A stretch of DNA of 64,000 nt from positions 1,798,001 to 1,862,000 of the forward strand of contig NZ_CP045434.1 in NCBI RefSeq assembly GCF_009363895.1, read 5' to 3'. The DNA comes from Sphingomonas ginsengisoli An et al. 2013 (GTDB lineage Bacteria; Pseudomonadota; Alphaproteobacteria; Sphingomonadales; Sphingomonadaceae). Made by a program: the position numbers and the translations under genes. Positions within the stretch are counted from its first letter, which is position 1, and each line of letters begins with the position of its first letter. Shown here piece by piece: positions 29,535 through 44,123 of the stretch. The notes under the pieces were generated by a model. It searched no databases. It saw nothing but the letters and a program-made list of their open reading frames with translations, and was not told where the DNA came from.

Positions 29535-29836
29535 ACTAAGCGAAAGCGTGCCACTTGTACGTGCGGACTGAAATTAGTTCCCGGTTCGCTAGGAACCACT
29601 GCCCGCCCGCTTCAAGCGGAAGCTCGCCGCTTTGCGACAACCAGTCTTATGTGAAATCCGGTTCGAGTCTCCAAGCGCGCTCTCCGGAGATCTGCCAGCC
29701 AGATCAACGATGCCGGGCGCGCCGATAGCCCGGCATGATGAGTCTGCCCGTCGCGATAAGATTGGAGCTTCTGCGTTGCGTTTCGCGTGCTTAAACGCAA
29801 CGATCCGTTTCGATCGAGTAACCGGAGGTGCTGCGT
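29535..29836. other. Gene-free gap before the accessory island
   Basis: There are 302 bases with no supported gene. Short frames on the minus strand have no family features. GGTTCGAGTCTCC at 29662-29674 looks like a tRNA T-arm but has no tRNA around it. Confidence 0.5.
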
Positions 29837-30838
29837 GTGAGTGAGCCTGTCTTGGGCCGTCTAGAGAAAGTCGAACTGCGGCAGATTTGGGTATCTGAAG
29901 CAACTTCATTCACCCCGTGGCTCGCACGAGATGAAAATTTAGTCATACTTGCGGATGCACTTGGGCTTGAACTTGAGCTTGAAGCACAAGAAAAGGCGGT
30001 TGGCCCGTTCCGTGCGGACATCCTTTGCAAGGAGTTAGGGTCAAACTCTTGGGTGCTCATTGAGAACCAGCTTGAGAAGACCGATCACGGTCACCTTGGA
30101 CAGCTGCTAACATACGCCTCGGGTTTAGAAGCGGTCACGATCGTCTGGATTGCAGCGCGGTTCACCGAAGAGCACCGGTCGACGCTCGACTGGCTCAACA
30201 AGATCACTGATGACACTTTTCGGTTCTTCGGGCTGGAGGTTGAGCTCTGGCGGATCGGCGACTCTCCTGCTGCCCCGAAGTTCAACATCGTCTCAAAGCC
30301 GAACGATTGGTCGAGATCCGTCGCGCAAGCGGCCCGTGCGATTGATGAGGCGGAGTTATCCGACACCCGAGTTTTGCAGAGAGAGTACTGGGAGCAATTT
30401 CATCTGGAACTCGACCGGCATAAGGGACCAATCAGCGGAAATCGCAAGGCGCAGCTGCAATCTTGGATGACGTACCCAGTGGGTCGCAGCGGCTTCATGT
30501 TGGGTGCGGTTATGATCCGTCCGAAAAAGCAGGTTCGGGCGGAGCTCTACATCTCGAACGAGCATGCAAAATCCTTCTTTTTTCAGCTTTGCGAACAACG
30601 GGCGCACGTTGAACAAGAGCTCGGGTACGAACTGCTCTGGGAAGAACTGCCCGATGCTCGCGACAAACGAGTCTCTATTGCCCTTAGAGGCGTGGACCCG
30701 GAAGACCGGTCAGACTGGCCGCGGCAGCATGCTTGGTTAGCCAAGCATGTAAACGACTTGAGGAGAGTTTTTGAAAGTCGTGTGCGGCAGCTAAGAAGCG
30801 AGAACTGGCAAGAGCCGGTCGAGAAGGCCGTTAGCTGA
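29837..30838 (+). CDS. DUF4268 / PD-(D/E)xK nuclease-like protein
   Basis: This 333-residue protein has an N-terminal restriction-endonuclease-like core: FRADILCKELGSNSWVLIEN, then QLEKTDHGHLGQLLTYASGL. Here Asp and Glu-x-Gln stand for the D...ExK active site of PD-(D/E)xK nucleases; Q replaces K, as in some families. The C-terminal half (from about 190) matches DUF4268: YWEQFHLELDRHKG, MLGAVMIRPKKQVRAELYIS. Members usually sit in defence or mobile islands and are thought to be DNA nucleases or restriction-like proteins. GTG 29837 has GGAGG eight bases upstream. Its codons are AT-richer than those of the chromosome on either side, which suggests transfer. Confidence 0.8.
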   Translation: MSEPVLGRLEKVELRQIWVSEATSFTPWLARDENLVILADALGLELELEAQEKAVGPFRADILCKELGSNSWVLIENQLEKTDHGHLGQLLTYASGLEAVTIVWIAARFTEEHRSTLDWLNKITDDTFRFFGLEVELWRIGDSPAAPKFNIVSKPNDWSRSVAQAARAIDEAELSDTRVLQREYWEQFHLELDRHKGPISGNRKAQLQSWMTYPVGRSGFMLGAVMIRPKKQVRAELYISNEHAKSFFFQLCEQRAHVEQELGYELLWEELPDARDKRVSIALRGVDPEDRSDWPRQHAWLAKHVNDLRRVFESRVRQLRSENWQEPVEKAVS

Positions 30839-31137
30839 CATCGCGTCTTGCGATGCTCATCGCTGCTCCAAAAAACGGACAGGGACGGTGCAGCTTTGGC
30901 CAGCACGGCCAGGGACAGCTCGGGATGACTCTACAAGTTGGCCGCTTCGCGCTCACGCAAGGCAGAACGCAAATTTGCGATAAGAGGCACCTTCTCCTGG
31001 ACTTCTTTCGCTATCGGAGCGGAAATCAGTTCGTGAGTCGCAGCGCTGGTGAGCTGCATAGCGCCTGGCAGCCCGAATCTGCCGGGCTTCGGTCAGTGGA
31101 AGCGGCAATCCAGCGGCTGCCAACTGGAACCACTCAC
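30839..31137. other. Gap upstream of the recombinase cassette
   Basis: There are 299 bases with no gene I can support. An open frame runs through it into the DUF3489 gene but its sequence has no conserved features upstream of the ATG at 31138. Confidence 0.45.
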
Positions 31138-31404
31138 ATGACCAAAGATCAGAAGGCTGCACCCACAACCAAGCAGGACAAGGCCGAAGCGGCCGCCACC
31201 CCCAGCAACACCAAGTTCGACCTAGTACTCGGCCTCCTTCGACGCGAGCAAGGCGGCACACTTGCCGAGCTGGTGGAAGCCACCGCTTGGCAGCCGCACA
31301 CGACCCGAGCGATGCTGACGGGCCTTCGTAAGAAGGGCCATGCCATTGAGCGCCGCAAGCGCGGTGACGTGACCTGCTACCATCTCGCCAGCGTGGACGC
31401 CTGA
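31138..31404 (+). CDS. DUF3489 small DNA-binding-like protein
   Basis: This 88-residue protein has a polar Lys/Ala-rich N terminus (MTKDQKAAPTTKQDKAEAAA) and a C-terminal winged-helix-like domain: LVLGLLRREQGGTLAELVEA, then TAWQPHTTRAMLTGLRKKGH, then RKRGDVTCYHLA. This is DUF3489, which in alphaproteobacteria is repeatedly found just before a DUF2924 gene and a serine recombinase. It is probably a regulator or accessory factor of the recombinase (inference). It stops two bases before the next gene. Confidence 0.8.
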   Translation: MTKDQKAAPTTKQDKAEAAATPSNTKFDLVLGLLRREQGGTLAELVEATAWQPHTTRAMLTGLRKKGHAIERRKRGDVTCYHLASVDA

Positions 31405-31406
31405 AC

Positions 31407-31805
31407 ATGGCCGACATTGAACAACAGCTGGCGGCGTTGATCGCGCTGCCGGCAGCAGCGCTGCCGGCCGAGTGGCAGATGGTCTACAAGACCCCTGCCC
31501 CCCGCCTTCCGCCCGACCTCTTGCGCCGTGGCATTGCTTACCGGCTCCAGGAGCGCGCCTATGGCAAGCTGCCAGCGAGGATCGCACGCGAGATCGCCGC
31601 CGCTGGTCGCAGGAAGAGACCGGAGGTCAGCCCAGGCACTCGGCTGGTGCGCGAGTGGAACGGCCGCACCATCGATGTGATCGCCACTGAGGAGGGCATG
31701 CTCTGGGAAGGGCGGACCTACAGCTCCTTGTCGGCCATCGCGCGCGAGGTGACCGGGACGCCGTGGTCCGGGCCGAGGTTCTTCGGGATCGGCAAGCATG
31801 CCTGA
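31407..31805 (+). CDS. DUF2924 protein
   Basis: This 132-residue protein matches DUF2924: RRGIAYRLQERAYGKLPARI, then GTRLVREWNGRTIDVIATEE, then FLWEGRTYSSLSAIAREVTG in outline (here GMLWEGRTY). The SLSAIAREVTGTPWSGPRFFG end is a helix-turn-helix-like fold, probably DNA-binding. The gene overlaps the start of the recombinase by eight bases, so the two are coupled. Its exact role in recombination is unknown. Confidence 0.85.
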   Translation: MADIEQQLAALIALPAAALPAEWQMVYKTPAPRLPPDLLRRGIAYRLQERAYGKLPARIAREIAAAGRRKRPEVSPGTRLVREWNGRTIDVIATEEGMLWEGRTYSSLSAIAREVTGTPWSGPRFFGIGKHA

Positions 31806-33435
31806 GCGCAAGGTCATCCGCTGCGCTATCTACACTCGCAAGAGCACCGAGGAGGGCCTTGAGCAGGAGTTCAACAGCCTCGACGCCCAGCATGAGGCCT
31901 GTGCCGCCTACATCCTCAGCCAGCTGCACGAGGGCTGGATTCAGAACCCTGAGCGCTACGACGATGGCGGCTTCTCAGGCGGCAACATGGACCGGCCCGG
32001 CCTCAAGCGACTGATGGCGGACATCGCCGCGGGCAAGGTTGACGTGATCGTAGTCTACAAGGTCGACCGGCTCACCCGAGCCCTCACCGACTTCGCACGG
32101 ATCGTGGAGGTGTTGGATGCCAGAGGTGCATCCTTCGTGTCCGTCACGCAGGCCCTGAACAGCACCACCAGCATGGGCCGGCTGACTCTCAATGTGCTCC
32201 TCTCCTTTGCTCAGTTCGAACGCGAGGTCACGGGCGAGCGGATCCGCGACAAGATCGCCGCTTCGAAGAAGAAGGGCATGTTCATGGGTGGCCCGGTGCC
32301 GATCGGCTACGACGTGCAAAACCGCAAGCTCGTCATCAACGAGGCGGAGGCCGCAACCGTCCGGCACATCTTCACCCGCTACCTGGCCCTGGGTTCCGGC
32401 CGTGAGCTGATCGAGGAGCTGCGGACGGATGGTTACCGCACTAAGGTACGCCAGCAGGGCAGCCGGATCGTGGGGGGCATCCCCTTCGAGCGTGGCGTGC
32501 TGTTCCACATCCTCGGCAACCCGATATACATCGGCAAAGTCGTGCACAAAGGCGTGGAGCATGAAGGCGAGCACCCGCCGCTCATCGATCCGGAGCTCTG
32601 GGCTAGCGTTCAGCAGCGCATCGCTGATAATCGGGTGAGCCGCGGCCGAGCACGCAACGGCAACCCAACCAGCTTACTGGCAGGTGTCCTTCGCGACGGA
32701 CACGGCCGGCGCATGACCCCGAGCCATGCTGTGAAGAAGGGCAAGCGCTACCGCTACTACATCACTCATGCAGCGGAGCTGAGGACGGGTCAGCCGCAGG
32801 CGTGGCGCATGCCAGCCGCAGACCTCGAGGCTGCGGTAGTCGATCGAGTGACGCAGTACCTCCGTGATCATCGGGAGCTTGCCGCGATGGCTGGCCCCTC
32901 GCCCACGGCCTCTCACCTGCGAGCCCTTTTAGATCGGGCCGATCACTTCGCTGCAAGTTTGCAGGCCAATGCGGGGCAGCGCGCGATACTCGGGCGGCTG
33001 CTGATGAAGGTCACCGTCAGCCAGGCTTACCTCGCCTTGCTTATCGATGCGGCTCAGCTGGCAGGCCTGCTCGAATTACCACCCCCTCTTAGCGACGAGC
33101 CCATCGAGCTGGTCACCTCAGCATCGAAGGTGCGGCAGGGCACGGCCACAAAGCTGGTGTTGACTAATGCCTCGGCAAGCCAGCCGAGGCGGGACAATAA
33201 CCTGATTGCCCTGCTTGCTGAAGCGCAGGCTGCGCGTGCGGCAGTGCTGGCAGCACCAGAGAAATCGCTTCGGGAGCTCGCGGCGGAGCAGGGGCGCTGC
33301 CGACATCGTCTGCCTAAGCTGGTTCGGCTGTCGTGGCTCTCGCCGGAGGTCACGGCTGCGATCGTCGATGGCAAGGCTCCTCACGACCTAACGCCAAGGC
33401 AGCTGCTAGAGGGAGAGCACCCCTTAAGTTGGTGA
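31798..33435 (+). CDS. Large serine recombinase (resolvase/invertase family)
   Basis: This 545-residue protein has the serine recombinase catalytic domain at its N terminus. Ser16 lies in YTRKSTEEGLEQEFNSLD, and the catalytic Arg region in VYKVDRLTRALTDFARI near residue 85-101. FAQFEREVTGERIRDKIAASK is the E helix near 140-160. A recombinase domain (PFERGVLFHILGNPIYIG near 230-247) and a zinc-ribbon/coiled-coil region follow. A basic C-terminal part ends it. It catalyses strand exchange between short att sites with a phosphoserine intermediate. A dyad at 33463-33492 just downstream may be an att site. Confidence 0.93.
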   Translation: MPERKVIRCAIYTRKSTEEGLEQEFNSLDAQHEACAAYILSQLHEGWIQNPERYDDGGFSGGNMDRPGLKRLMADIAAGKVDVIVVYKVDRLTRALTDFARIVEVLDARGASFVSVTQALNSTTSMGRLTLNVLLSFAQFEREVTGERIRDKIAASKKKGMFMGGPVPIGYDVQNRKLVINEAEAATVRHIFTRYLALGSGRELIEELRTDGYRTKVRQQGSRIVGGIPFERGVLFHILGNPIYIGKVVHKGVEHEGEHPPLIDPELWASVQQRIADNRVSRGRARNGNPTSLLAGVLRDGHGRRMTPSHAVKKGKRYRYYITHAAELRTGQPQAWRMPAADLEAAVVDRVTQYLRDHRELAAMAGPSPTASHLRALLDRADHFAASLQANAGQRAILGRLLMKVTVSQAYLALLIDAAQLAGLLELPPPLSDEPIELVTSASKVRQGTATKLVLTNASASQPRRDNNLIALLAEAQAARAAVLAAPEKSLRELAAEQGRCRHRLPKLVRLSWLSPEVTAAIVDGKAPHDLTPRQLLEGEHPLSW

Positions 33436-33462
33436 GGGAGCCCGTAATTTTCACAGTACGCT

Positions 33463-33492
33463 GTCATGACATTTGTACAGTTTTGTCATGAC
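33463..33492. promoter_or_regulatory. Dyad element between recombinase and hsdR (att site or operator candidate)
   Basis: GTCATGACA and TGTCATGAC form a perfect nine-base inverted repeat separated by 12 bases that hold a TGTACA palindrome. It lies 28 bases after the recombinase stop and 45 bases before hsdR. Related sequence (TCATGACATTT and CATTTGTAC) recurs just past hsdM at 39225-39249. It could be a recombination site, or an operator of the restriction genes. Confidence 0.45.
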
Positions 33493-33536
33493 TCACTGAA
33501 GGGGCTAGGCCAGCGTCCGAACAGGACGGGCAAGTA

Positions 33537-36305
33537 TTGCCTCCGTCAACACTAGCAGTTCATAGTTGGTCGGTGAGCGTCACTCCCGAAGCAGCGGCCC
33601 GGCAGGTCATCGATCAACAGCTCGCAGCAACCGGATGGGTGGTGCAGGACCGCTCGACTATGAACCGGACCGCCGCTCTGGGCGTGGCGGTTCGGGAGTA
33701 TCCACTCGCGACCGGTCCCTGCGATTACCTCCTGTTCGTGGCCGGCAAGGCATGCGGCGTGATCGAAGCCAAGGCGGCTGGAGCGACCTTGTCCGGGGTG
33801 GCCGAACAGGCACGCGGCTATCAGCCGCTTCCAGAGCAGCCCCTAGCGCGTTGGACCGACCCGTTTCGTTTCGACTATGAGGCGTCCAGCACCGAGATCC
33901 TGTTCTCCGACCGTGTCGATCCGCTGCACCGGTCACGCCGGGTGTTTTCGTTCCACCAGCCCGAGACGCTGCACGAGTGGCTGAAGTCAGGTTCGTCCTT
34001 CCGATCACGGCTCAGCAAGCTTCCGCCGCTGATCACCGACGGGCTGCGGGACTGCCAGGTCGAGGCAATCGCCGGTATCGAGCAGTCGCTTGCGGCCGAC
34101 CGGCCCCGAGCCTTCGTCCGCATGGCAACGGGCGCCGGCAAAACCTTCACCGCGGCGACACTTTCCTACCGCTTGCTGGCCCATGCCGACGTCAAGCGCA
34201 TCCTCTTCCTTGTCGACCGCAACAACCTCGGCCGGCAAACGCTGAAGGAGTTCCAGACCTACCGTCCGCCGGGCACCGGCCGCCTGTTCACCGAGCTCTA
34301 CAACGTTCAGCGGCTCGGCTCAGTCGGGCTCGACCCGCCCGCCAAGGTGGTTATCTCGACCATCCAGCGCCTCTTCGCCCAGCTGACCGGGTCCGAGCTG
34401 TCGGACGAGGACGAGGAAGCCAGCGACTTCGAGCGGGGCTGGGTACCGCCGCCCAAGCAGGTGGCCTACAATGCCGCCATCCCGCCGGAAGCGTTCGACA
34501 TCGTCATCGTCGACGAGTGCCATCGTTCCATTTACGGCAACTGGCGCCAGCTTCTCGACTATTTCGACGCCCAGATCGTCGGCTTGACCGCTACCCCCAC
34601 GGTTCAGACCGCAGCCTTCTTCAACGAGAACATCGTTGCTGATTACCCCTACGAGCGGTCGGTCGCCGACGGAGTCAACGTGCCGTTCGAGATCTTCCGC
34701 ATCCGGACCCAGATCGGCGAGCATGGCGGACGGGTGGAGGCCGGCTACACCGTCCCGGTTCGTGACCGACACACCAGGGCGCAGGAATTCCGACTTCTCG
34801 ACGACGACCTCGTTTATGCTCCGCAGGACCTCGACCGGAGCGTCATCGCACGCAACCAGATCCGCACGGTGCTCGAGACCTATCGCGACACCCTGTTCAC
34901 TGAGCTTTTTCTCGGGCGCACGGAGGTCCCGAAGACCCTGATCTTCGCCAAGGACGACCACCACGCCGAGGAGATCGTCGAGATCGCCCGCGAGGTGTTC
35001 GATCAGGGCAACGAGTTCGCCAAGAAGATCACCTACCGGGTCGGGGCGGGCTATGCGGAGCAGCTGATCAACGCCTTCCGAAACTCATACTACCCACGCA
35101 TTGCCGTCACGGTCGACATGATCGCCACAGGCACGGACGTGAAGGCGATTGAGGCGCTGATCTTCCTCCGGGATGTCCGGTCCGCCGTCTACTTCGAGCA
35201 GATGCGGGGCCGCGGCGTCCGGACCATGGATCCGGCGACGCTGGCCACCATCACGCCGGGCGCCGGGGTGAAGGACCGCTTCGTGCTCGTCGACGCGGTC
35301 GGCGTGACCGACAGCCTGAAGGTGCAAGCCGTGCCACTCGATCGAGAGCATGGCGTCGCATTCGAGAAGCTTCTCGAGCAGATTGCCAGCGGACGTAGCG
35401 ACGAGGATGCCGTCGCCACGCTGGCCGGCCGTCTCGCTCGGCTCGACCGCAAGCTCGACCCGGCCGCCCGCGCCAAGGTGGAAGCGGTTGCGGGCAAGCC
35501 TCTCAGCGCTTTGGCTGGTGAGCTGGTCGAAGCCATCGACGCGGACGCGATCATCTCGCAGGCCGAGACCTGCCACGGACCCCGTCCCACCGCCGAGCAG
35601 ATGGAGACTGTCGCGGCCGACAGGCGGGAAGCAGCTCTTTTAGCTTACAACGACCCGAACCTTCGCCGCGTGCTCATCGAGGTGAAGAAGGCGTCCGAAG
35701 TCGTCATCGACGACATCAGCCGGGACGTGACGATCTCCTCGGCCTGGGACGAAGGTCAGGCCACGACCATGACGGCCGACTTCGCCCGCTTCCTGGACGA
35801 GCATCGGGACCAGCTCACCGCCCTGCGCATCCTCTACGGCTTGCCGGCGGCGACCAGGCGCCTGACCTATGCCAGCCTGGAGGAGCTGCGAGATGCCATG
35901 CTCCAGCCGCCGTGGCTTCTGGAACCGCTCGCCATCTGGAGCGCCTACCGCCGGCTGCAGGGCGACAAGGTTCGGGCGAACCCGGCCAAGACTCTGACCG
36001 ACATAGTGGCGCTGGTCCGCTTCGCCGTCGGCCACGCCGAAACGCTGGCACCGCTGTCGTCCGACATGGCCGGGCGATTTAATCTGTGGCTCGGCCGCGA
36101 GCAGCGGGCGGGGCGGCACTATACGCAGGAGCAGCTCGGCTGGCTGGAAGCCGTCCGCGACTATCTCGCCGCCAACATCGAGGTGACCACCGCCGACCTC
36201 CAGGACCAGTTCGAGGGCAGGGGCGGCATCATTGGCGCCCGGCGGGCTTTCGGCCAGCGGCTTGAGCCGCTACTCGACGAGCTTCAGGACGCATTGGTGG
36301 CATAA
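33537..36305 (+). CDS. hsdR: Type I restriction enzyme, R subunit (endonuclease/helicase)
   Basis: This protein is about 922 residues long. An N-terminal PD-(D/E)xK nuclease is seen in GPCDYLLFVAGKACGVIEAK (Asp near 62, ExK near 75-78). The SF2 translocase motor has Walker A MATGAGKTF (near 197), DECHRS (near 324), LTATPT (motif III) and the second RecA lobe with IAVTVDMIATGTDVK and EQMRGRGVR (motifs V and VI). It cuts unmethylated DNA after ATP-driven translocation, together with HsdS and HsdM. TTG at 33537 or GTG at 33573 may be the start; neither has a strong ribosome site. The order hsdR-hsdS-hsdM differs from the classical one. Confidence 0.92.
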   Translation: MPPSTLAVHSWSVSVTPEAAARQVIDQQLAATGWVVQDRSTMNRTAALGVAVREYPLATGPCDYLLFVAGKACGVIEAKAAGATLSGVAEQARGYQPLPEQPLARWTDPFRFDYEASSTEILFSDRVDPLHRSRRVFSFHQPETLHEWLKSGSSFRSRLSKLPPLITDGLRDCQVEAIAGIEQSLAADRPRAFVRMATGAGKTFTAATLSYRLLAHADVKRILFLVDRNNLGRQTLKEFQTYRPPGTGRLFTELYNVQRLGSVGLDPPAKVVISTIQRLFAQLTGSELSDEDEEASDFERGWVPPPKQVAYNAAIPPEAFDIVIVDECHRSIYGNWRQLLDYFDAQIVGLTATPTVQTAAFFNENIVADYPYERSVADGVNVPFEIFRIRTQIGEHGGRVEAGYTVPVRDRHTRAQEFRLLDDDLVYAPQDLDRSVIARNQIRTVLETYRDTLFTELFLGRTEVPKTLIFAKDDHHAEEIVEIAREVFDQGNEFAKKITYRVGAGYAEQLINAFRNSYYPRIAVTVDMIATGTDVKAIEALIFLRDVRSAVYFEQMRGRGVRTMDPATLATITPGAGVKDRFVLVDAVGVTDSLKVQAVPLDREHGVAFEKLLEQIASGRSDEDAVATLAGRLARLDRKLDPAARAKVEAVAGKPLSALAGELVEAIDADAIISQAETCHGPRPTAEQMETVAADRREAALLAYNDPNLRRVLIEVKKASEVVIDDISRDVTISSAWDEGQATTMTADFARFLDEHRDQLTALRILYGLPAATRRLTYASLEELRDAMLQPPWLLEPLAIWSAYRRLQGDKVRANPAKTLTDIVALVRFAVGHAETLAPLSSDMAGRFNLWLGREQRAGRHYTQEQLGWLEAVRDYLAANIEVTTADLQDQFEGRGGIIGARRAFGQRLEPLLDELQDALVA

Positions 36306-36316
36306 GCGGGGGACTG

Positions 36317-37735
36317 GTGAAGGCGAAGCGTGTGGCGGCAAGTGGGCCGGTAGAAGGTCGCTGGCCGCTGCCTCCAGGTTGGGTTTGGCGACGTGCGCGT
36401 GATCTTGGTCGCATCGTCGGCGGCAGCACGCCGAAGAACGCTACCGATCCATCGAACTTCAGCGACGACGGCATGCCTTGGATCACTCCAGCCGACCTTT
36501 CTGGTTATACACACGCGACCATCTCGGAGGGACGTCGCAACCTTGCGCCGCATCTTGTGAACAGGGCAGCGCTTCTGCCCGCTGGCACGGTTCTGATCTC
36601 CTCCCGCGCGCCGGTCGGCTACTGCGCTGTCGCGTCCAATGCGCTGCTTACGAACCAAGGGTTCCGGAGCCTTGTCCTTGGCGACGAAGTCGATCCGTTT
36701 TTCATCCGCTATTACGTGCTGTTCTCAAGAAGCTACCTTGAGGACCATGCGAGCGGCACGACGTTCAAGGAGCTATCGGGGACGGCGCTAGGTGAGCTGG
36801 TCTTTCCGGTCCCCCCTTTAGAAACTCAGCGCCGCATCGTCGCTCGCATCGACGATTTCTTTGCCCAAATCGACGATGGCGAGGCAGCGCTGGCGCGGGC
36901 GCGGGAGGATCTGGCGACTTGGCGCAAGGCGCTGCTGAAGGCCGCCGTCACCGGCGAACTCACCGCCGACTGGCGGGCGAAAAACGCATCGGGAGAAATC
37001 GGCGCGGACTATCTAGTGCGGCTATACTCAGCACGGCTCCCCCGGGCCGTTGGGGCACGCGGCAGAGGCGCAGGGTCCCAGGCATCTGCCCCCCAGCCCC
37101 CCTTTTCTGTCCCAGCCGAGTGGACTTGGACGACTCTCGGACAAATTATTTCGTCGGGGCCATCTAATGGCTTCTCGCCGAAACGGTCGCCAGATGGCCG
37201 CGGCACTGAGGCGCTGAAGCTTACGGCGACAACCTCCGGCCGACTAAGGCTTGGACCGGACTGTGTGAAGGTCATTTCGGAGGACATCCCGAAGGATTCT
37301 CCGCTATACCTTGAGGCTGGTGACCTTCTGTTCCAGCGGGGAAACACCCGTGAATACGTGGGCATGGCCGCCGTTTATGACGGACCAGAAGGTCGCTACA
37401 TCTATCCGGACCTGATGATACGCGTCCGATAGCTGACCGACTCATTGACGCAATGGGTTTGGCGGTGGTCAACCTCTCCGCATGGGCGCCACTACTTGAT
37501 GAGCTCGGCCCAGGGGGGCGCGGGCACCATGCCTAAAATCTCTGGACAGACCCTCCGCGACATGCCGATCCCATTACCTTCAGAAGCAGAACTCGCCGCG
37601 GTTCTCGATAGACTTGCGCACTTGGAAGCAGAAGCGGAGCCGGGAGAGGATGAATTGGTGCAGGTAGATCGACTGCCGCTGAGCCTCCGCCACTCCATCC
37701 TGTCCGCTGCCTTCCGTGGAGAACTCATCGCATGA
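36317..37735 (+). pseudogene. hsdS: Type I restriction specificity subunit, interrupted by an in-frame TAG
   Basis: The reading frame from ATG 36317 runs 371 codons and stops at TAG 37430-37432. The same frame then continues without shift to TGA at 37733, another 100 codons. The first part holds target-recognition domain 1 (WPLPPGWVWRRARDLGRIVG; SGTTFKELSG), the central conserved helix (PPLETQRRIVARIDDFFAQI) and the start of domain 2. The part after the stop completes domain 2 and the last conserved helix (ISGQTLRDMPIPLPSEAELA; LRHSILSAAFRGEL). A complete HsdS needs both. A single nonsense change therefore breaks the gene, unless suppressed or reassembled from two peptides. It ends overlapping hsdM by four bases. 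Confidence 0.88.
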
Positions 37736-39204
37736 ATGAGCAGGCGCTCGTCGCCAAGGTCTGGAACTACGCCCACGTCCTACGGGACGATGGCGTGTCC
37801 TATGGCGACTACCTTGGGCAGATCAGCTTCTTGCTCTTTATGAAGATGGACAAGGAGCGGACCGAGGCGCTCGGTGAGGCCTCGGCTCTGCCGGCCGATG
37901 CCAATTGGGATGCGCTCGCAGGCAAGGCAGGAGAGGAGCTGGAGCGGACCTACCGCCGCATCCTAGAAACCCTGTCCCGGCGCACCGACATCGTCGGCAC
38001 CCTGTTCCTGAAGGCCGAGAACAAGATCGGCGACCCGGCCAAGCTGCAGCGTCTCGTGACGCTGATCGGAGCCGAGACTTGGATGGGCCTCGACGTCGAT
38101 GTGAAGGGCACCATCTACGAGGGCCTGCTCGAGCGGAACGCAGGCGAGGTGAAGTCCGGCGCCGGCCAGTATTTCACACCCAGGTCGCTGATTGAGGTGA
38201 TCACCCAGCTCGTCGACCCGGAGCCCGAGCACACGGTTCACGATCCGGCGGTCGGAACCGGCGGCTTCCTGCTCGCCGCCTACGAGCACATGAAGGCGAA
38301 GCCGGCCGCCCGCGACCGAAAGGTCGCCAAAGCTCTCCGCGAGGAGAAACTTTCGGGCACCGATATCGTCGCAGAGGTCGTCCGGCTCTGCGCCATGAAC
38401 CTCTACCTGCACGGCATCGGCGGGGCGGTGTCGCCCGTGCGCCAGGCGGATGCGCTGCTGGACCGGGGCGTCCAGTCATTCGACGTCATCCTGACCAACC
38501 CGCCGTTCGGGAAGCGCCAGTCGTTCCGTATCGTCCGGGAGGATGGCGGAATCGAGAGCGAGCGGCAGGACTATGTCCGTGACGACTTCACCGTCACCAC
38601 GGGCAACAAGCAGCTGAACTTCCTCCAGCACATCATGTCGATCCTCAAGGTCGGCGGCAGCACGGCCGTCGTCATGCCGGACAACGTCCTCTTCGAGGGC
38701 GGGGCGGGCGAGGCCCTGCGTAAGCGCCTGCTGGAGGAGTTCGATTTCCACACCCTTCTACGACTGCCAACTGGCATCTTCTACAGCCAAGGGGTAAAGG
38801 CCAACGTCCTGTTCTTCGATCGGGTGGCTCCGGGCAGCGGCATCGGCACCCGCGATTTATGGGTCTATGATCTTCGCACCAACCAGCGCTTCACCCTGCG
38901 CGAACGGCCCTTGAAGCGTTCCGATCTCGACAATTTTGTCGCCTGCTACGGCGAGAAGCGGAGGCGGCACGAGCGGCAGGAGACCGACCACTTCCGCCGC
39001 TTCGACTATGAGGAGTTGGTAAAGCGCGACAAGCTGAACCTCGACATCTTCTGGCTGAAGGACGCCAGCACCACCGACCCGGACAGCCTACCACCACCAG
39101 CTGAGCTGGCGGCGGAAATTGTGGACAGCCTGGAGACGGCGCTGGAGAAGTTCCGGTCGGTGGCGGCGAATATCTCTTTGCCCAGCTCAAATGCCCCGAG
39201 CTGA
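37732..39204 (+). CDS. hsdM: Type I DNA N6-adenine methyltransferase, M subunit
   Basis: This 490-residue methyltransferase has the N-terminal HsdM helical domain (VWNYAHVLRDDGVSYGDYLG; FLLFMKMDKE). The SAM-binding motif I is DPAVGTGGFLLAAYEHM near residue 170. The catalytic motif IV is ILTNPPFGKRQS near 255, of the N6-adenine (N/D)PP(F/Y) type. GAGQYFTPRSLIEVI precedes motif I. It methylates the target with HsdS as a trimer (M2S) and protects host DNA. All key motifs are intact although its partner hsdS is interrupted, so methylation may be lost unless another S subunit exists. It starts four bases inside the hsdS end (ATGA). Confidence 0.93.
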   Translation: MNEQALVAKVWNYAHVLRDDGVSYGDYLGQISFLLFMKMDKERTEALGEASALPADANWDALAGKAGEELERTYRRILETLSRRTDIVGTLFLKAENKIGDPAKLQRLVTLIGAETWMGLDVDVKGTIYEGLLERNAGEVKSGAGQYFTPRSLIEVITQLVDPEPEHTVHDPAVGTGGFLLAAYEHMKAKPAARDRKVAKALREEKLSGTDIVAEVVRLCAMNLYLHGIGGAVSPVRQADALLDRGVQSFDVILTNPPFGKRQSFRIVREDGGIESERQDYVRDDFTVTTGNKQLNFLQHIMSILKVGGSTAVVMPDNVLFEGGAGEALRKRLLEEFDFHTLLRLPTGIFYSQGVKANVLFFDRVAPGSGIGTRDLWVYDLRTNQRFTLRERPLKRSDLDNFVACYGEKRRRHERQETDHFRRFDYEELVKRDKLNLDIFWLKDASTTDPDSLPPPAELAAEIVDSLETALEKFRSVAANISLPSSNAPS

Positions 39205-39541
39205 AGTGCCAACAACCGCCGTACTCATGACATTTTCGCACATTTGTACTGCGTGCCGGATCGCACGCGAGGGGAGCTCCCTAGGACCTCTCGACACTTA
39301 GGGTCCGCGCGAACAGTCGTTTTTGGTGGAAAGCGGCCGGTCCGCTGTTAGGTTTACACAGGCGAATAGCCGACGATCGTTCAGCAAGGCAGCAATCGTC
39401 TTGTCTCGATAGAATTCGAGCGCATCGGTTTGGCCAGTCTTGACCAGGACCTGGCGGTAAGCTGAATCCGATCCTGGGCGTCGAAGACCAGGCATGCTGG
39501 CCTGCATTCGGGTCGAGCGACCTTCGGCGATAAGGCGGTCG
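39205..39541. other. Gap after the restriction operon
   Basis: There are 337 bases with no gene I can support. TCATGACATTT (39225-39235) and CATTTGTAC (39241-39249) resemble the dyad element before hsdR and could mark the other end of the restriction cargo. A minus-strand frame (39298-39654) has no conserved features and overlaps the next gene. Confidence 0.5.
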
Positions 39542-40756
39542 TTAGAGAGGCGGGCGCCGCTTGAAACGGTCGGCGATAAGCAACTCAAGACGGAAAAGCA
39601 GCATAGTCTGAATGAAAAGGGTAGCAGTGCGCGCGAGATAATTACCGTACCCAAGCGTCTTTACTTCGCCCTGTCCGCCCTTTCCCGATCGATAGTGAAT
39701 GATCCCGGTCTTGCGGTCGAACTCCATTCCGTTGTGATGGGAGGCATTGCGGAGCTGGTTATCGAACTCGGCGGCGGCTGCGGCCAAGGCCGGGTGCGCG
39801 GAAAAAGCTCTAACTCGGCCAGCTTTGTCGATTCGATGGTAGTCGTCCAGTGTCATCGTCTCGAATTGATCGAACGATCGCCCCACAACTAGATTGTTCA
39901 GCATTGCAAGTAGTTCGACGTTGCTCGCAAAGGTCTCGAATGCGTCGCCGTAGACCATACGTGTCCGGTCGAAATCGGTGGAGCCGGCGACGGCTGTATC
40001 CGCTACCTTGACCCCGAAGTTAACAGCAGAATGCGCCTGCGAGAATTCGGAGAAATGGTTAAGGTAGGCCTTCATAAGTTCGAAGTAGCGGCGCCCATGC
40101 GACCGGCTAAGTTCAGCGTCGAAATAGCCGAGAAATCGCTCGAAATCGGCAGACTCCATGGCTTGTCTAAGCACTTGGAACAGACCCTCAAACATCGGTT
40201 CGAAGGCGAAGCCAGCTAGTCGCTGAGTGAACATAAACAACCAGTCCGGCAGCCCGTCAGGCGCTTCGGGTAGCGGGTTCGCCTTCTGAAAGCGCTCGCG
40301 ACGCGCAACGGCGAGCTTGTCCTTGCCATTGCGGTGAAGCGACCAGGCTGCGCGAAGAGCCTCCCATTCGAATCCGATTGCAGCCGGCGGCGGCGCGGCC
40401 TTTTCGGCGTCGCTGAAATCTTCACTGAGCCCTGCTGCGCGCCGTGCAGCGAGCATATTTTGAACCATCCTCGCGCCCATCTCGAGGCTGGCGAAAAATT
40501 TAGGATCGGATCGCTCGGCTTGGCCGAAAAGAAAGTCTGGATGCAAATTGATGACAGCCGCGCTGTCATTGGGGTCAACCTCAATAGCGTTCGGGCCGAA
40601 GCGGATGCCTACTCCTTGTTCAAGTGTAAGCCCCATTTCGGAACCACAATGGCTGCATGCAAAATGGTGCTGCTCGACGGGCTCATTACCAAGGCCAATC
40701 CGAAGAACATGATCGGTGCCGCACTCTTCGCAGGCGGCGTACTTGCGAATGATCAT
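39542..40756 (-). CDS. Zinc-ribbon protein with HEPN-like C-terminal motif (unknown function)
   Basis: This 404-residue protein has an N-terminal zinc-ribbon pattern: Cys9-x2-Cys12 (CEECG) and Cys34-x2-Cys37 (CSHCG). The middle is helical. Near residue 336 the stretch FDNQLRNASHHNGMEFDR contains R-N-A-S-H-H. This fits the R-x4-H catalytic motif, with a polar residue after Arg, of HEPN-type RNases, and it lies in a helical context followed by IIHYRSGKGG. No family name is certain. It is in the defence island between hsdM and the Xre-RES module and divergent from the latter. A RNA-cleaving toxin or abortive-infection role is inference only. Confidence 0.5.
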   Translation of the reverse strand: MIIRKYAACEECGTDHVLRIGLGNEPVEQHHFACSHCGSEMGLTLEQGVGIRFGPNAIEVDPNDSAAVINLHPDFLFGQAERSDPKFFASLEMGARMVQNMLAARRAAGLSEDFSDAEKAAPPPAAIGFEWEALRAAWSLHRNGKDKLAVARRERFQKANPLPEAPDGLPDWLFMFTQRLAGFAFEPMFEGLFQVLRQAMESADFERFLGYFDAELSRSHGRRYFELMKAYLNHFSEFSQAHSAVNFGVKVADTAVAGSTDFDRTRMVYGDAFETFASNVELLAMLNNLVVGRSFDQFETMTLDDYHRIDKAGRVRAFSAHPALAAAAAEFDNQLRNASHHNGMEFDRKTGIIHYRSGKGGQGEVKTLGYGNYLARTATLFIQTMLLFRLELLIADRFKRRPPL

Positions 40757-40801
40757 GGCACGCCTTTGTTCAAGGCCTTCCCTTTGTCGATACCGTCTGG
40801 C

Positions 40802-40830
40802 TTGCGCAATCGAAATGTCAATACTATAGT
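40802..40830 (+). promoter_or_regulatory. Sigma70-like promoter of the barrel-Xre-RES unit
   Basis: TTGCGC (40802-40807), 17 bases, TATAGT (40825-40830), followed by AAGGAGA and the ATG at 40856. The -10 lies between direct GTCAAT repeats (GTCAATACTATAGTCAAT), which could be a binding site for the Xre protein of the same unit. Confidence 0.5.
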
Positions 40831-40855
40831 CAATTCACTCCTCAAGGAGATTGGC

Positions 40856-42130
40856 ATGTCAAACGTCATCCAGCTGCCCCGTCCACGTCGCCTACGGCCA
40901 TCTCCAGCTCGGATCGGCTACTATCTTCGGGTTGGTCGAAACGATCACAAGGAAGTTGCTAGCCGACTGGCGGAGGGAGAGAGGGCGTATTCAGGCCTCG
41001 TATTTGATGCGCACAATGTCGAGCGTCATCGCGAGTTGATTGCTGCGGCAGCGACCTACGGCCTAGATGCGGTGCTCGACACGCGCTCTCAGCAAGCAGC
41101 CTTTGTGGGTGGCTACAGCAATAGCCTTGGTAAACTGCCGTGGGGGCTCGGGCGCCAGTCTGCGATAGGAGATTTTCGAGGGGCAGAGGGGCAACGCCGG
41201 GCAGAAGAAATTGCCACCTTTGCCGAAGAGCATGGAATCTCTGCGGTTCTGGCCCCCACCCACCTAATTAGCAGTGCCAATGATCCTTGGTTCGCTGCGG
41301 ATCGTGCCGTCGCCACTCGTCTGAAAGCTCAACTGCCGCGTCAATCGGCGCTCTTCTATTCTCTGGCGTTGCCGTTTCAGCTCTTACGGAACACGGAAGA
41401 GCGGGGTGCAATCGTCGAAGCCTTGCGCTCGGTCGACATGGACGCGCTTTGGATCAAGGTAGAGAACTTCGGCGCTGACGCCAGTGGCGAGAAGGTCCGC
41501 GCTTTTGTAAATGCCTCTCAGGACTTCCATCAGCTGGGAGTACCGGTTGTAGTTGACCATGCTGGCGGGTTGCCCGGGCTCGCTACGCTCGCGTTCGGTG
41601 CAACTGGTGGCATTGCGCATGGCATCATGATGTTCGAGAGCTTCAAGGCATCTGCGTGGCGTCATCCTCGCGGTGGAACGCCACGCGTGCCCGCTCCTCG
41701 GGTCTACCTGCAAGGCTTGGACATGTTGGTTGCTAAAGATCAGGCATCGAACCTGCTCGAGCACTCTCTACGTGTCAGGGGACAGCATGCGTGCCGTGAT
41801 CCGCGCTGCTGTCCTCGCGGCTACCGCGACATGGTTGAGCATCCCGCTCGCCATTACTGCTATAGTCGCGCCCGTCAGGTCGAGATGCTGAGCTCGACGC
41901 CGATCGGCGGCCGCGCGAGCGCTTTTATGGACGAGATGGTGCGGCCTAGATCTGATGCCCTTGCTGCAGCTGCCACGCTGCCGCTCACCGATGAGAAGTT
42001 AGTGGCCAGCCTCGCTAAGCGCCACCTCGCCATGGGACGCTTTCGGGGCGCGTTGGCAGACATGACCGAAAATTTTGAGCCTTTGACAGTGGCGCAATGT
42101 CCGTTGTCGCGCCAGCAGCGAGAAGAGTGA
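40856..42130 (+). CDS. Unrecognised barrel-like protein associated with Xre-RES toxin-antitoxin genes
   Basis: This 424-residue protein starts at ATG 40856 with AAGGAGA upstream. Regular alternation of short hydrophobic strands and helices suggests a TIM barrel: GYYLRVG, GLVFDAHN, GLDAVLDTRS, ISAVLAPTHLI, SALFYSLALPFQLL, DALWIKVENFG, VPVVVDHAGGLPG, GIAHGIMMFES. The C terminus has a Cys/His-rich stretch HACRDPRCCPRG that could bind a metal. The barrel and Cys-rich end recall the tRNA-guanine transglycosylase/DpdA group, but I cannot match the exact zinc motif. It precedes an antitoxin and a RES toxin on the same strand, so it may be a third component. Confidence 0.5.
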   Translation: MSNVIQLPRPRRLRPSPARIGYYLRVGRNDHKEVASRLAEGERAYSGLVFDAHNVERHRELIAAAATYGLDAVLDTRSQQAAFVGGYSNSLGKLPWGLGRQSAIGDFRGAEGQRRAEEIATFAEEHGISAVLAPTHLISSANDPWFAADRAVATRLKAQLPRQSALFYSLALPFQLLRNTEERGAIVEALRSVDMDALWIKVENFGADASGEKVRAFVNASQDFHQLGVPVVVDHAGGLPGLATLAFGATGGIAHGIMMFESFKASAWRHPRGGTPRVPAPRVYLQGLDMLVAKDQASNLLEHSLRVRGQHACRDPRCCPRGYRDMVEHPARHYCYSRARQVEMLSSTPIGGRASAFMDEMVRPRSDALAAAATLPLTDEKLVASLAKRHLAMGRFRGALADMTENFEPLTVAQCPLSRQQREE

Positions 42131-42182
42131 TCGTGGCTCGTGTGAAAGGATTAAGTTTGAACGAGAAAGGCTGGGTAACATC

Positions 42183-42518
42183 ATGACGGCGGTCGCAAGG
42201 AAGCTAGACTCGATCCGCTCCAAGGGGGGGATGAAGCACATCGACGTCGCCAATCTGCTCGGGACTAGGCCGGAGACTGTATCGCGCTGGAACCAGGGTA
42301 AAGCTTACCCGCACTCTGGCACTGAAAAGGAGCTGATTGAGCTCGAATACATCGTGGACCAGCTAAGCGACTTCTACGAGCCTCGTGAGGCCAGGCTATT
42401 TCTGTTCTCCCGTCAGCGGCTGCTGAACAATCAGTCGCCTGCGGATCTCATCAAGAATGGCCGCATTGACGAGGTGGTGGCGTTTGTGTGCCAACTGCGG
42501 GACGGGGTCTTTGCCTGA
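42183..42518 (+). CDS. Xre/MbcA/ParS-type antitoxin
   Basis: This 111-residue protein has an N-terminal Xre-type helix-turn-helix (HIDVANLLGTRPETVSRWNQ near residue 19-38). Its C-terminal domain is like the toxin-binding MbcA/ParS region (RQRLLNNQSPADLIKNGRID near 79-98), usually called DUF2384. It neutralises the adjacent RES toxin and represses the operon (knowledge of the MbcTA and ParST families). It overlaps the toxin reading frame, which supports coupled translation. Confidence 0.8.
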   Translation: MTAVARKLDSIRSKGGMKHIDVANLLGTRPETVSRWNQGKAYPHSGTEKELIELEYIVDQLSDFYEPREARLFLFSRQRLLNNQSPADLIKNGRIDEVVAFVCQLRDGVFA

Positions 42519-43098
42519 TAGTGGTTCTCGCCCGCACGATCCGGATCTTTTGGATCTGCTGGCCGGGTACACGGTGCAGCCTTTCGCCGGGGTTGTCTGG
42601 CGTGCGACGCGCCTATCACAGGATCCCACCGCTTTCTCATATCGAGGTGGTCGCTGGGCGCCACCGTCGAGCTACCAGTCAGTGCCTGTTCTATATACTA
42701 GCTGCGAGCGCGATGGGGCTATCGCCGAGATGAGCAGCTGGTTAGCGCTGCTGACACCGCCGCCAACTAAACCAGTGCTAATCCACAAGCTTACAGTTCG
42801 AGCCGAGCAGGTAATCACCCTTGACGAGGCCGATCTAACGCGGCTCGGCATCGACGCCAGAACATATGACACACGATCCTATGTGGGAATGGGCGAGGCG
42901 CCACCGTCGAGAACTCAGGAGATTGGTGCTGCGATAAGCTTTCTCGGAGTGGACGGCTTGAGGGTTCCGTCAGCCCGTTGGTCATGCGACAACGTTATTT
43001 TGTACGACAATCTAGATCTGGCGTTCGCGATTGACGTGGAAGAAACCTTAGAGGTCAGCTGGACTGAGTGGCGGGAACTAAATCTGCCCGACGGCTGA
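42511..43098 (+). CDS. RES-domain toxin
   Basis: This 195-residue protein (from TTG 42511, overlapping the antitoxin by eight bases; ATG 42457 would add 18) has the RES fold. It is named for the conserved Arg, Glu and Ser, here in VVWRATR (Arg31), ERDGAIAEM (Glu near 72-73) and GLRVPSARW (Ser near 153). GRWAPPSSYQSVPVLYTS is the NAD-binding segment. RES toxins such as MbcT and ParT degrade or use NAD+, and cause arrest or death when the antitoxin is lost. This is the toxin of the three-gene unit, third from the promoter. Confidence 0.82.
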   Translation: MPDSGSRPHDPDLLDLLAGYTVQPFAGVVWRATRLSQDPTAFSYRGGRWAPPSSYQSVPVLYTSCERDGAIAEMSSWLALLTPPPTKPVLIHKLTVRAEQVITLDEADLTRLGIDARTYDTRSYVGMGEAPPSRTQEIGAAISFLGVDGLRVPSARWSCDNVILYDNLDLAFAIDVEETLEVSWTEWRELNLPDG

Positions 43099-43541
43099 CT
43101 AACAGCTTGGGCGAGCGCACCGGCCGATGTTGCTTCGCCGCGCAGCCGTACCCCGCCAGGCGCTGAACGTCCGCGGTCGGGTCTTTCCGCCCGCATCCGT
43201 CTCCATGAATGAATGTCTGCTCATGGGCGGTCGCGGCGACAGCCTAAGCGACGGCGGTTGGGTCTTCACGGCCGTCACCGACCTCGATGAACGAAAGTCC
43301 GCTCATGGGCAAATTCGATCAATGCCTGAGCGCCCGAGAGTGGTTCTTCCCGGACGAGACAGGTTGTTCACCGGAGTACGCTCAAGAGACCGCGGCCTTG
43401 ATCCCAAGGCAACACAGACGGGTTCGACGTCTCTCGGCTTCCGCTCAGGCGAGCCTTATTCGGAGTTGTGCCGCAAAGTCGGGCACTTGCAGAGAGGGCA
43501 CCAACGAGAGCGCGGTTTTTCAGCAGAGACTGAGAAGAGAG
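43099..43541. other. Repeat-bearing gap between island and tRNA-Thr
   Basis: There are 443 bases with no gene I can support. Two related elements are visible: GAATGTCTGCTCATGGGCGG at 43211-43230 and AAGTCCGCTCATGGGCAAATT at about 43294-43314. Each keeps the GT(C/T)TGC-like arm of the dispersed hairpin family but ends differently. Frames covering 43127-43606 are low in family-like features. Confidence 0.45.
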
Positions 43542-43617
43542 TGGTGCCGCTTACAGGACTCGAACCTGTGACCCCCTCATTACGAATGAGGTGCTCTACC
43601 AACTGAGCTAAAGCGGC
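43542..43617 (-). tRNA. tRNA-Thr (anticodon CGT)
   Basis: On the minus strand a 76-base cloverleaf begins GCCGCTTTAGCTCAGTTGG. The 7-bp acceptor stem is GCCGCTT/AAGCGGC. The D arm is GCTC...GAGC, and the anticodon arm CCTCA-TTCGTAA-TGAGG has anticodon CGT (reads ACG, Thr). The T arm is ACAGG-TTCGAGT-CCTGT, and an encoded CCA end lies at 43542-43544. Its 3' end faces the accessory island (lower coordinates), a common integration position for islands. Confidence 0.95.
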
Positions 43618-43709
43618 GTGGCCTCGCGGCTGGCGGGCGCCCTACCAAGGGCGGGGCCGCGGAACAAGGGGGCGGTGGACGCCCACCTGCCCCGCCGCCG
43701 TCCGGGCGA

Positions 43710-44123
43710 TTACTTCTCGACGCCCTTCACTTTGCCCCACGTACGCGCGGCGGTGTAGCCGAGGTAGCCGGTGCCGAAGAGCGTGTAGAGCTCGTTCGGG
43801 ATGCCGCGCAGGTAGCTGGTCATGCCGGTGGCGATCGCCGCGGCGGTGGTCGGGTTGGCGGCGCTGATCAGGCCCATCGGGATCGACCACAGCACCAGCG
43901 CGTACATGACGTAGAGGAAGCTCGGACGGGCGCGGCTGGTCCACGGGTCTGGCGACTGCGCCTCGGCGACGATCGCCTGCATCTGCTGGGCGATGGCGTT
44001 GGCTTCCTGGTCGCCCTCGAGCTTGAGGAGGTTCAATTTGGCCTGCTCGCGCGCCTGGGGGTCGGGAATGATCTTGTCGATGAGCTTGGCGACGGGAGCG
44101 ACGATGGCGTCGAGAATGGGCAT
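43710..44123 (-). CDS. Phage/GTA-type holin (3TM family)
   Basis: This 137-residue protein begins with a helical segment (LDAIVAPVAKLIDKIIPDPQ). It continues with a Glu/Gln-rich linker, then hydrophobic helices (FLYVMYALVLWSIPMGLISA; AAIATGMTSYLRGIPN; LYTLFGTGYLGYTAARTWGK). This matches the 3TM holin family found in gene transfer agents and prophages. Holins perforate the membrane and release the endolysin. It follows the endolysin on the same strand (gap of 78 bases), forming a lysis cassette. AAGGAA precedes the ATG. No other phage genes are nearby. Confidence 0.75.
   Translation of the reverse strand: MPILDAIVAPVAKLIDKIIPDPQAREQAKLNLLKLEGDQEANAIAQQMQAIVAEAQSPDPWTSRARPSFLYVMYALVLWSIPMGLISAANPTTAAAIATGMTSYLRGIPNELYTLFGTGYLGYTAARTWGKVKGVEK

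Follow-up and report, generated by a model that had tools for sequence, protein, structure and literature searches.

Toxin-antitoxin systems of the RES-Xre class (MbcTA/NatRT/ParST type) consist of two genes. They are so described in PMC12457610 and PMC12204516. The RES toxins consume or modify NAD+, with the residues R, E and S in catalytic roles, and are bound by their Xre partners (PMC12457610). In P. putida, an Xre-RES complex represses its own promoter via an inverted repeat, and the role of RES-Xre systems in bacterial cell biology is called still largely unknown (PMC12204516). Here we describe a locus from a 64,000-nt stretch of Sphingomonas ginsengisoli DNA (contig NZ_CP045434.1; hereinafter the window) in which an Xre antitoxin gene and a RES toxin gene are preceded by a third gene, P0001, for a protein whose predicted fold is closest to that of tRNA-guanine transglycosylase (TGT). 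As computed over the available relatives, these three genes form a conserved triad that is co-inherited as a block:

40856..42130, + strand: P0001, the first gene (ATG start, 424 amino acids, stop codon included), encoding the TGT-fold protein (TIM barrel and Cys3-His tail)
42183..42518, + strand: Xre/MbcA/ParS-type antitoxin gene (111 amino acids; helix-turn-helix (HTH) and toxin-binding domain; PF09722 below the cut-off)
42511..43098, + strand: RES toxin gene (PF08808; TTG 42511 is the preferred start, ATG 42457 being in frame as well)

The three genes sit where a preliminary description of this sequence had placed them, with a spacer of 52 nt between P0001 and the antitoxin gene. That description started the RES protein at ATG 42457 (213 amino acids); relatives favor TTG 42511 (195 amino acids), a start that makes the RES gene overlap the antitoxin gene by 8 nt. 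A long open reading frame (ORF) from GTG 40334 was rejected as the frame of P0001: it collides with the opposite-strand gene 39542-40756, and relatives agree with ATG 40856.

Relatives of P0001 were found as three matches in 100 kin genomes (its own included), in 16 plasmid records, 13 of which were examined (the other three are near-duplicates by name and score), and in 32 genome-contig loci, which an alignment scan recovered and a single-protein scan did not. Profiles of the three proteins run over all ORFs identify P0001-type, antitoxin and toxin genes in each of the 48 loci, the window included. L041 duplicates L003, and L034 is almost identical to L004, so that these loci amount to about 46 distinct copies. 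The gene order is collinear in 47 of the 48, the antitoxin and toxin genes being divergent in L012 from Gordonia bronchialis. The RES match of L020 is found some 2.4 kb farther along, without the beginning of the domain; that of L018 is in two pieces, as is the first gene in L026, L032 and L048, and no start codon was assigned in L027 and L028. Thus, the homologs are repeatedly accompanied by Xre and RES genes and are not mostly solitary or set among housekeeping genes, which the preliminary description had named as the sign of an accidental association. In a sample of 398 genomes of the phylum, there are two true matches to P0001 (window genome included), and L069 from this sample brings the number of loci with all three genes to 49; a third match (G313/L070) is spurious, being to another ORF that, from its sequence, we take to be an M20-type peptidase. 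The three-gene variant is rare, since 2 of these 398 genomes have a P0001 relative versus 41 of 150 phylum genomes (window genome included) with RES. The window genome itself also encodes a second Xre-RES pair (L090 1494-2524; genome 237200-240600), a two-gene one with no TGT-fold gene beside it.

Searches that start from the two partners lead to the same unit. The window RES protein matches 16 plasmid records, of which 14 also hold a P0001 relative and two come from Pannonibacter, so that, for RES proteins like this one, the antitoxin-toxin pair by itself is not the conserved unit. In the one Pannonibacter plasmid record of the two that was examined (L083 3986-5012), the antitoxin and toxin are of the same subtype and the first gene was not found. 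The window antitoxin matches 35 plasmid records, namely the 16 with a P0001 match and 19 others. Among the seven of these 19 that were examined, L084, L085 and L087-L089 carry an unbroken distant relative of P0001 that is divergent from the pair. In L086 (1102-3920, Mycolicibacterium rufum), an IS256-family transposase gene separates two pieces of such a distant first gene, and the antitoxin and toxin genes remain. The seventh is the Pannonibacter record L083. That the collinear and the divergent arrangement are both conserved argues for a functional link between the P0001-type gene and the pair.

The distances between the proteins tell a similar story. A Mantel test was run on 45 loci, i.e., the 48 minus eight that are broken, split, unclear or duplicate (L018, L020, L026, L028, L032, L034, L041 and L048) plus five actinobacterial ones. 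The correlation is 0.936 for the first protein and RES, 0.913 for the first protein and the antitoxin, and 0.896 for the antitoxin and RES, and none of 2000 permutations reached the observed value for any of the three pairs. These correlations show linked descent, not contact. When ORF families were compiled across 52 loci, only the three genes of the unit reached 51-52 loci; for the first gene and the antitoxin this recurrence reflects selection, the loci having been chosen via one or the other. The next family, in which an ORF running antisense to the unit is counted, is present in 13 loci. Taken together, the data strongly support a real three-gene unit as opposed to a chance neighborhood.

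The toxin is readily assigned, matching PF08808 with an E-value of 2.5e-17 and 63.8 bits (curated cut-off, 23.2). Across 45 aligned sequences from the loci of the Mantel test, which also underlie the residue counts for the P0001 family below, the R and E positions are invariant (45/45 each) and the S position is S in 38 of 45 (A in 5, N in 2); these positions were assigned by motif, not by superposition, and the window protein carries all three residues. The window antitoxin scores 17.5 bits against PF09722, under the 24.5-bit cut-off. It is 32-46% identical to 14 antitoxins adjoining P0001 relatives, and most of its annotated plasmid relatives are named Xre/MbcA/ParS. Its HTH part also shows weak PADLOC matches to the PDC-M64 and RmrA models (best E-value, 6.3e-5).

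Searches of sequence and profile families with P0001 and its relatives gave no credible match. The TGT profile PF01702 does not match any of the 13 and 27 family members compared with it, and an hhalign comparison (A5 against 20 TGT sequences) returned a probability of 0.5%, so that a sequence relationship to TGT was rejected. No family in PADLOC-DB 2023 matches P0001 or its Mesorhizobium relative up to an E-value of 0.1. Several weak hits were discarded, as none recurs across the family: NF011059 for P0001 itself (E-value 0.0066; 15.6 bits, with the cut-off at 354), PF07371 (one of 13 members, E-value 0.0011), PF25071 (4 of 27 members, best E-value 1.9e-4), and azurins, designed proteins and others (E-values of 0.14 and above). 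No phage homolog was found among records up to an E-value of 10, where the three hits span no more than 12% of P0001, and two scans of viral contigs revealed no P0001 relative.

The preliminary description had likened P0001 to a TIM barrel, and the AlphaFold2 model indeed shows eight barrel strands. In structure searches with two models, the best 50 matches listed for each are TGT entries, at 7-12% identity in the listed alignments; the prediction, a TIM barrel with a tail bearing Cys and His residues, thus finds TGT closest among these matches. A search of BFVD gave weak, mixed barrels, with 2 of 451 matches at an E-value of 0.001 or lower. The "Cys-rich end" noted previously is right insofar as conserved C313, C318, C319 and H333 follow the barrel; the last 75 or so residues are mostly helices. 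The codons of the cluster are located as follows:

41792..41854, + strand: codons of C313, C318, C319 and H333 of P0001, a putative metal site

In TGT, strand 8 is followed by a zinc site made up of three Cys and one His with the spacing C-x-C-x2-C-x25-H; in P0001, the spacing is C-x4-C-C-x13-H. C313 and H333 are present in 41 of 45 sequences and are missing only from the four Rhodobacterales plasmid copies (L013-L016). Two glycines, G248 and G256, do not vary, and a third, G238, is found in 44 of 45. H136, D234 and W199 are nearly universal outside six actinobacterial copies but are not kept within them. TGT has Asp102 at the end of strand 3 and its nucleophile, Asp280, in strand 8. D75 in strand 3 of P0001 (D in 43 of 45, E in 2) corresponds to the place of Asp102 by strand order, not by residue-level superposition. 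In strand 8, which reads GIAHG in the model, position 255, the place of Asp280 by strand order, is occupied by H, S, N, T, V or F and never by Asp (n = 45); Glu at the preceding position 254 is seen only in L007, L088 and L089 among the rows read. Thus, the earlier idea of a nucleic acid-modifying protein gains weight because the best structural neighbors are tRNA-guanine transglycosylases, but we do not file P0001 as a TGT, given that the TGT-like fold lacks, by strand order, the strand-8 Asp that is a defining catalytic feature of TGT.

The "one clear sigma70-like promoter" of the preliminary description was not recovered by a consensus scan of 39200-43800, which found no sites (mean of 1.4 in shuffled sequences). 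By eye, the following elements can be read upstream of P0001:

40802..40830, + strand: promoter-like TTGCGC-N17-TATAGT (TTGCGC 40802-40807, TATAGT 40825-40830)
40844..40849, + strand: Shine-Dalgarno-like AAGGAG

Because TTGCGCA precedes the first gene in 8 of 13 clade-1 loci (window counted), a promoter at this place is plausible. Upstream regions of 43 of the 48 loci (all except L026, L027, L028, L032 and L048) were scanned for inverted repeats after division by hand into clade 1 (13) and clade 2 (30). Repeats unmatched in 30 shuffles are present in 12 of the 30 clade-2 regions versus 1 of the 13 in clade 1. Eleven of these 12 are at most 34 nt away from the first gene; the clade-2 repeats have arms of up to 21 nt and, frequently, the core GATTTCA/TGAAATC or GTTTCA/TGAAAC. 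In the window's own upstream region, the scan found no such palindrome before P0001. Long, near-perfect palindromes with arms of 16-21 nt precede the first gene in L010, L031, L035 and L044 and are candidate Xre operators.

The genomic setting suggests a mobile, defense-rich region. Relatives of the unit reside on plasmids, some of them by repABC genes or typed as conjugative, and also near integrases; in L014 (5300-8783, Celeribacter), the unit is directly followed by qatA and qatB, which belong to the Qat anti-phage system. In the window, a type I restriction system (restriction endonuclease at 33537, specificity subunit at 36317, methyltransferase at 37732) adjoins the unit within 29828-39204, a stretch that also encodes the PDC-S11 candidate defense protein and a recombinase, presumably, from its sequence, of the serine type; 8 of the other 51 loci also have a relative of this recombinase. 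Between this stretch and P0001, the minus-strand gene 39542-40756, divergent from the unit, encodes a 404-residue protein without an assigned family, the start of which weakly matches a zinc ribbon; this gene does not figure in the listed recurrent neighbors of the relatives. A tRNA-Thr(CGT) gene is located at 43542-43617 on the minus strand. The 3' end of this tRNA is also where similarity to G056, a close relative, sets in again (43539), which suggests that the defense-rich stretch to its left is an island inserted there; a duplicate of the tRNA end, sought within the window only, was not found.

The interpretation that we put forward, at somewhat below even probability, is that the locus represents a mobile form of the RES-Xre toxin-antitoxin system with three genes, in which the TGT-fold protein acts as a control component. 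The free RES protein would deplete or transfer NAD+, by analogy with characterized RES toxins, and the Xre protein would bind RES and repress the operon from sites upstream of the first gene. The TGT-fold protein, in which the Asp102 position (by strand order) and a Cys/His cluster are kept and the Asp280 nucleophile is not, might bind a nucleic acid or nucleobase and hold the pair silent; a change of ligand, be it phage infection, a modified or missing base, or loss of the plasmid or island, could then release RES and arrest the cell. The missing nucleophile and the small number of universal residues lead us to rank, with modest confidence, a binding or sensing role ahead of base exchange. 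A more specific proposal, namely a nucleophile-less TGT-fold protein that senses tRNA, DNA or a 7-deazaguanine-like base and, when this is altered, fires the NAD+-consuming RES toxin through Xre, would be an undescribed principle of immunity or addiction; we regard it as conceivable but doubtful.

The TGT fold, the Asp at the Asp102 position by strand order, the Cys3-His cluster behind the barrel, the plasmid and island locations and the adjoining type I restriction system would also suit an active base-exchange enzyme whose chemistry is altered and which, like TGT or DpdA, puts a mark on tRNA or DNA, with Xre-RES killing cells that lose the mark or the enzyme, in the manner of restriction-modification or addiction. 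We consider this unlikely because position 255 is never Asp, with Glu at 254 confined to the three loci named above, the conserved D234 (strand 7) has no counterpart in the six actinobacterial copies, and no dedicated base-synthesis gene appears to travel with the unit, as judged from recurrent families (single neighbors were not annotated), none of which recurs broadly beside it. If, instead, the first protein folds or stabilizes the antitoxin-toxin complex as in TAC systems, the TGT fold being a reused scaffold, its tight co-variation with both partners, the long C-terminal helices of the model, which suit protein contact, and the paucity of universal residues would all be accounted for; yet RES mostly occurs without such a protein (41 of 150 genomes versus 2 of 398 with a P0001 relative) and Pannonibacter retains the same subtype without the first gene, which makes this role quite improbable. 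That the barrel acts on NAD+ breakdown products, such as nicotinamide or ADP-ribose phosphate, and limits or reverses the RES damage appears very improbable: RES chemistry gives such products and NadV-like TIM-barrel phosphoribosyltransferases use nicotinamide (PMC9503650), but no such enzymes are among the best 50 matches listed for either model (they may rank below these) and there is no credible sequence match. Finally, the unit is hosted by plasmids and islands with other defense and recombination genes, so an accidental neighbor moved by this traffic might be imagined; with all three genes in 48 of 48 loci, and in two arrangements, collinear and divergent, while other neighbors vary, this is hardly credible.

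What triggers RES-Xre systems is largely open, although RES is frequent in the phylum as sampled. With a dedicated third component that has the fold of a nucleic acid enzyme and is co-inherited with the pair from Proteobacteria to plasmids of Actinomycetota, this question becomes directly testable; if the proposed role is correct, the TGT fold extends from base exchange to toxin control. Among the matches listed in a search of titles and the beginnings of abstracts (open literature and few subscription papers, preprints excluded), none describes a RES-Xre system whose third gene encodes a TGT-like or barrel protein. Compared with TGTs proper (bacterial, archaeal and QTRT1), P0001 has no detectable sequence similarity, no nucleophilic Asp in strand 8, a different Cys spacing and extra C-terminal helices, and every locus identified via a P0001-type gene has a toxin pair next to that gene. 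TGT homologs are encountered in DNA-modification defense, namely DpdA (PMC6884629) and the BREX-related BRC loci (PMC12839542). The Dpd and BRC genes share with P0001 a TGT-superfamily-like protein and a mobile, defense-related setting, but the partners here are a toxin-antitoxin pair and no other family recurs broadly. TAC systems are likewise three-component units of toxin, antitoxin and accessory protein; in these, a SecB-like protein takes the accessory role and a ribonuclease that of the toxin (PMC9098466). The closest match remains RES-Xre of the MbcTA/NatRT/ParST type, with which the unit shares the RES toxin with its R-E-S residues, the adjoining Xre/MbcA/ParS antitoxin and, in part of the relatives, palindromic sites upstream of the operon, and from which it differs by a co-inherited TGT-fold gene that precedes the pair or, in several actinobacterial plasmids, is divergent from it.
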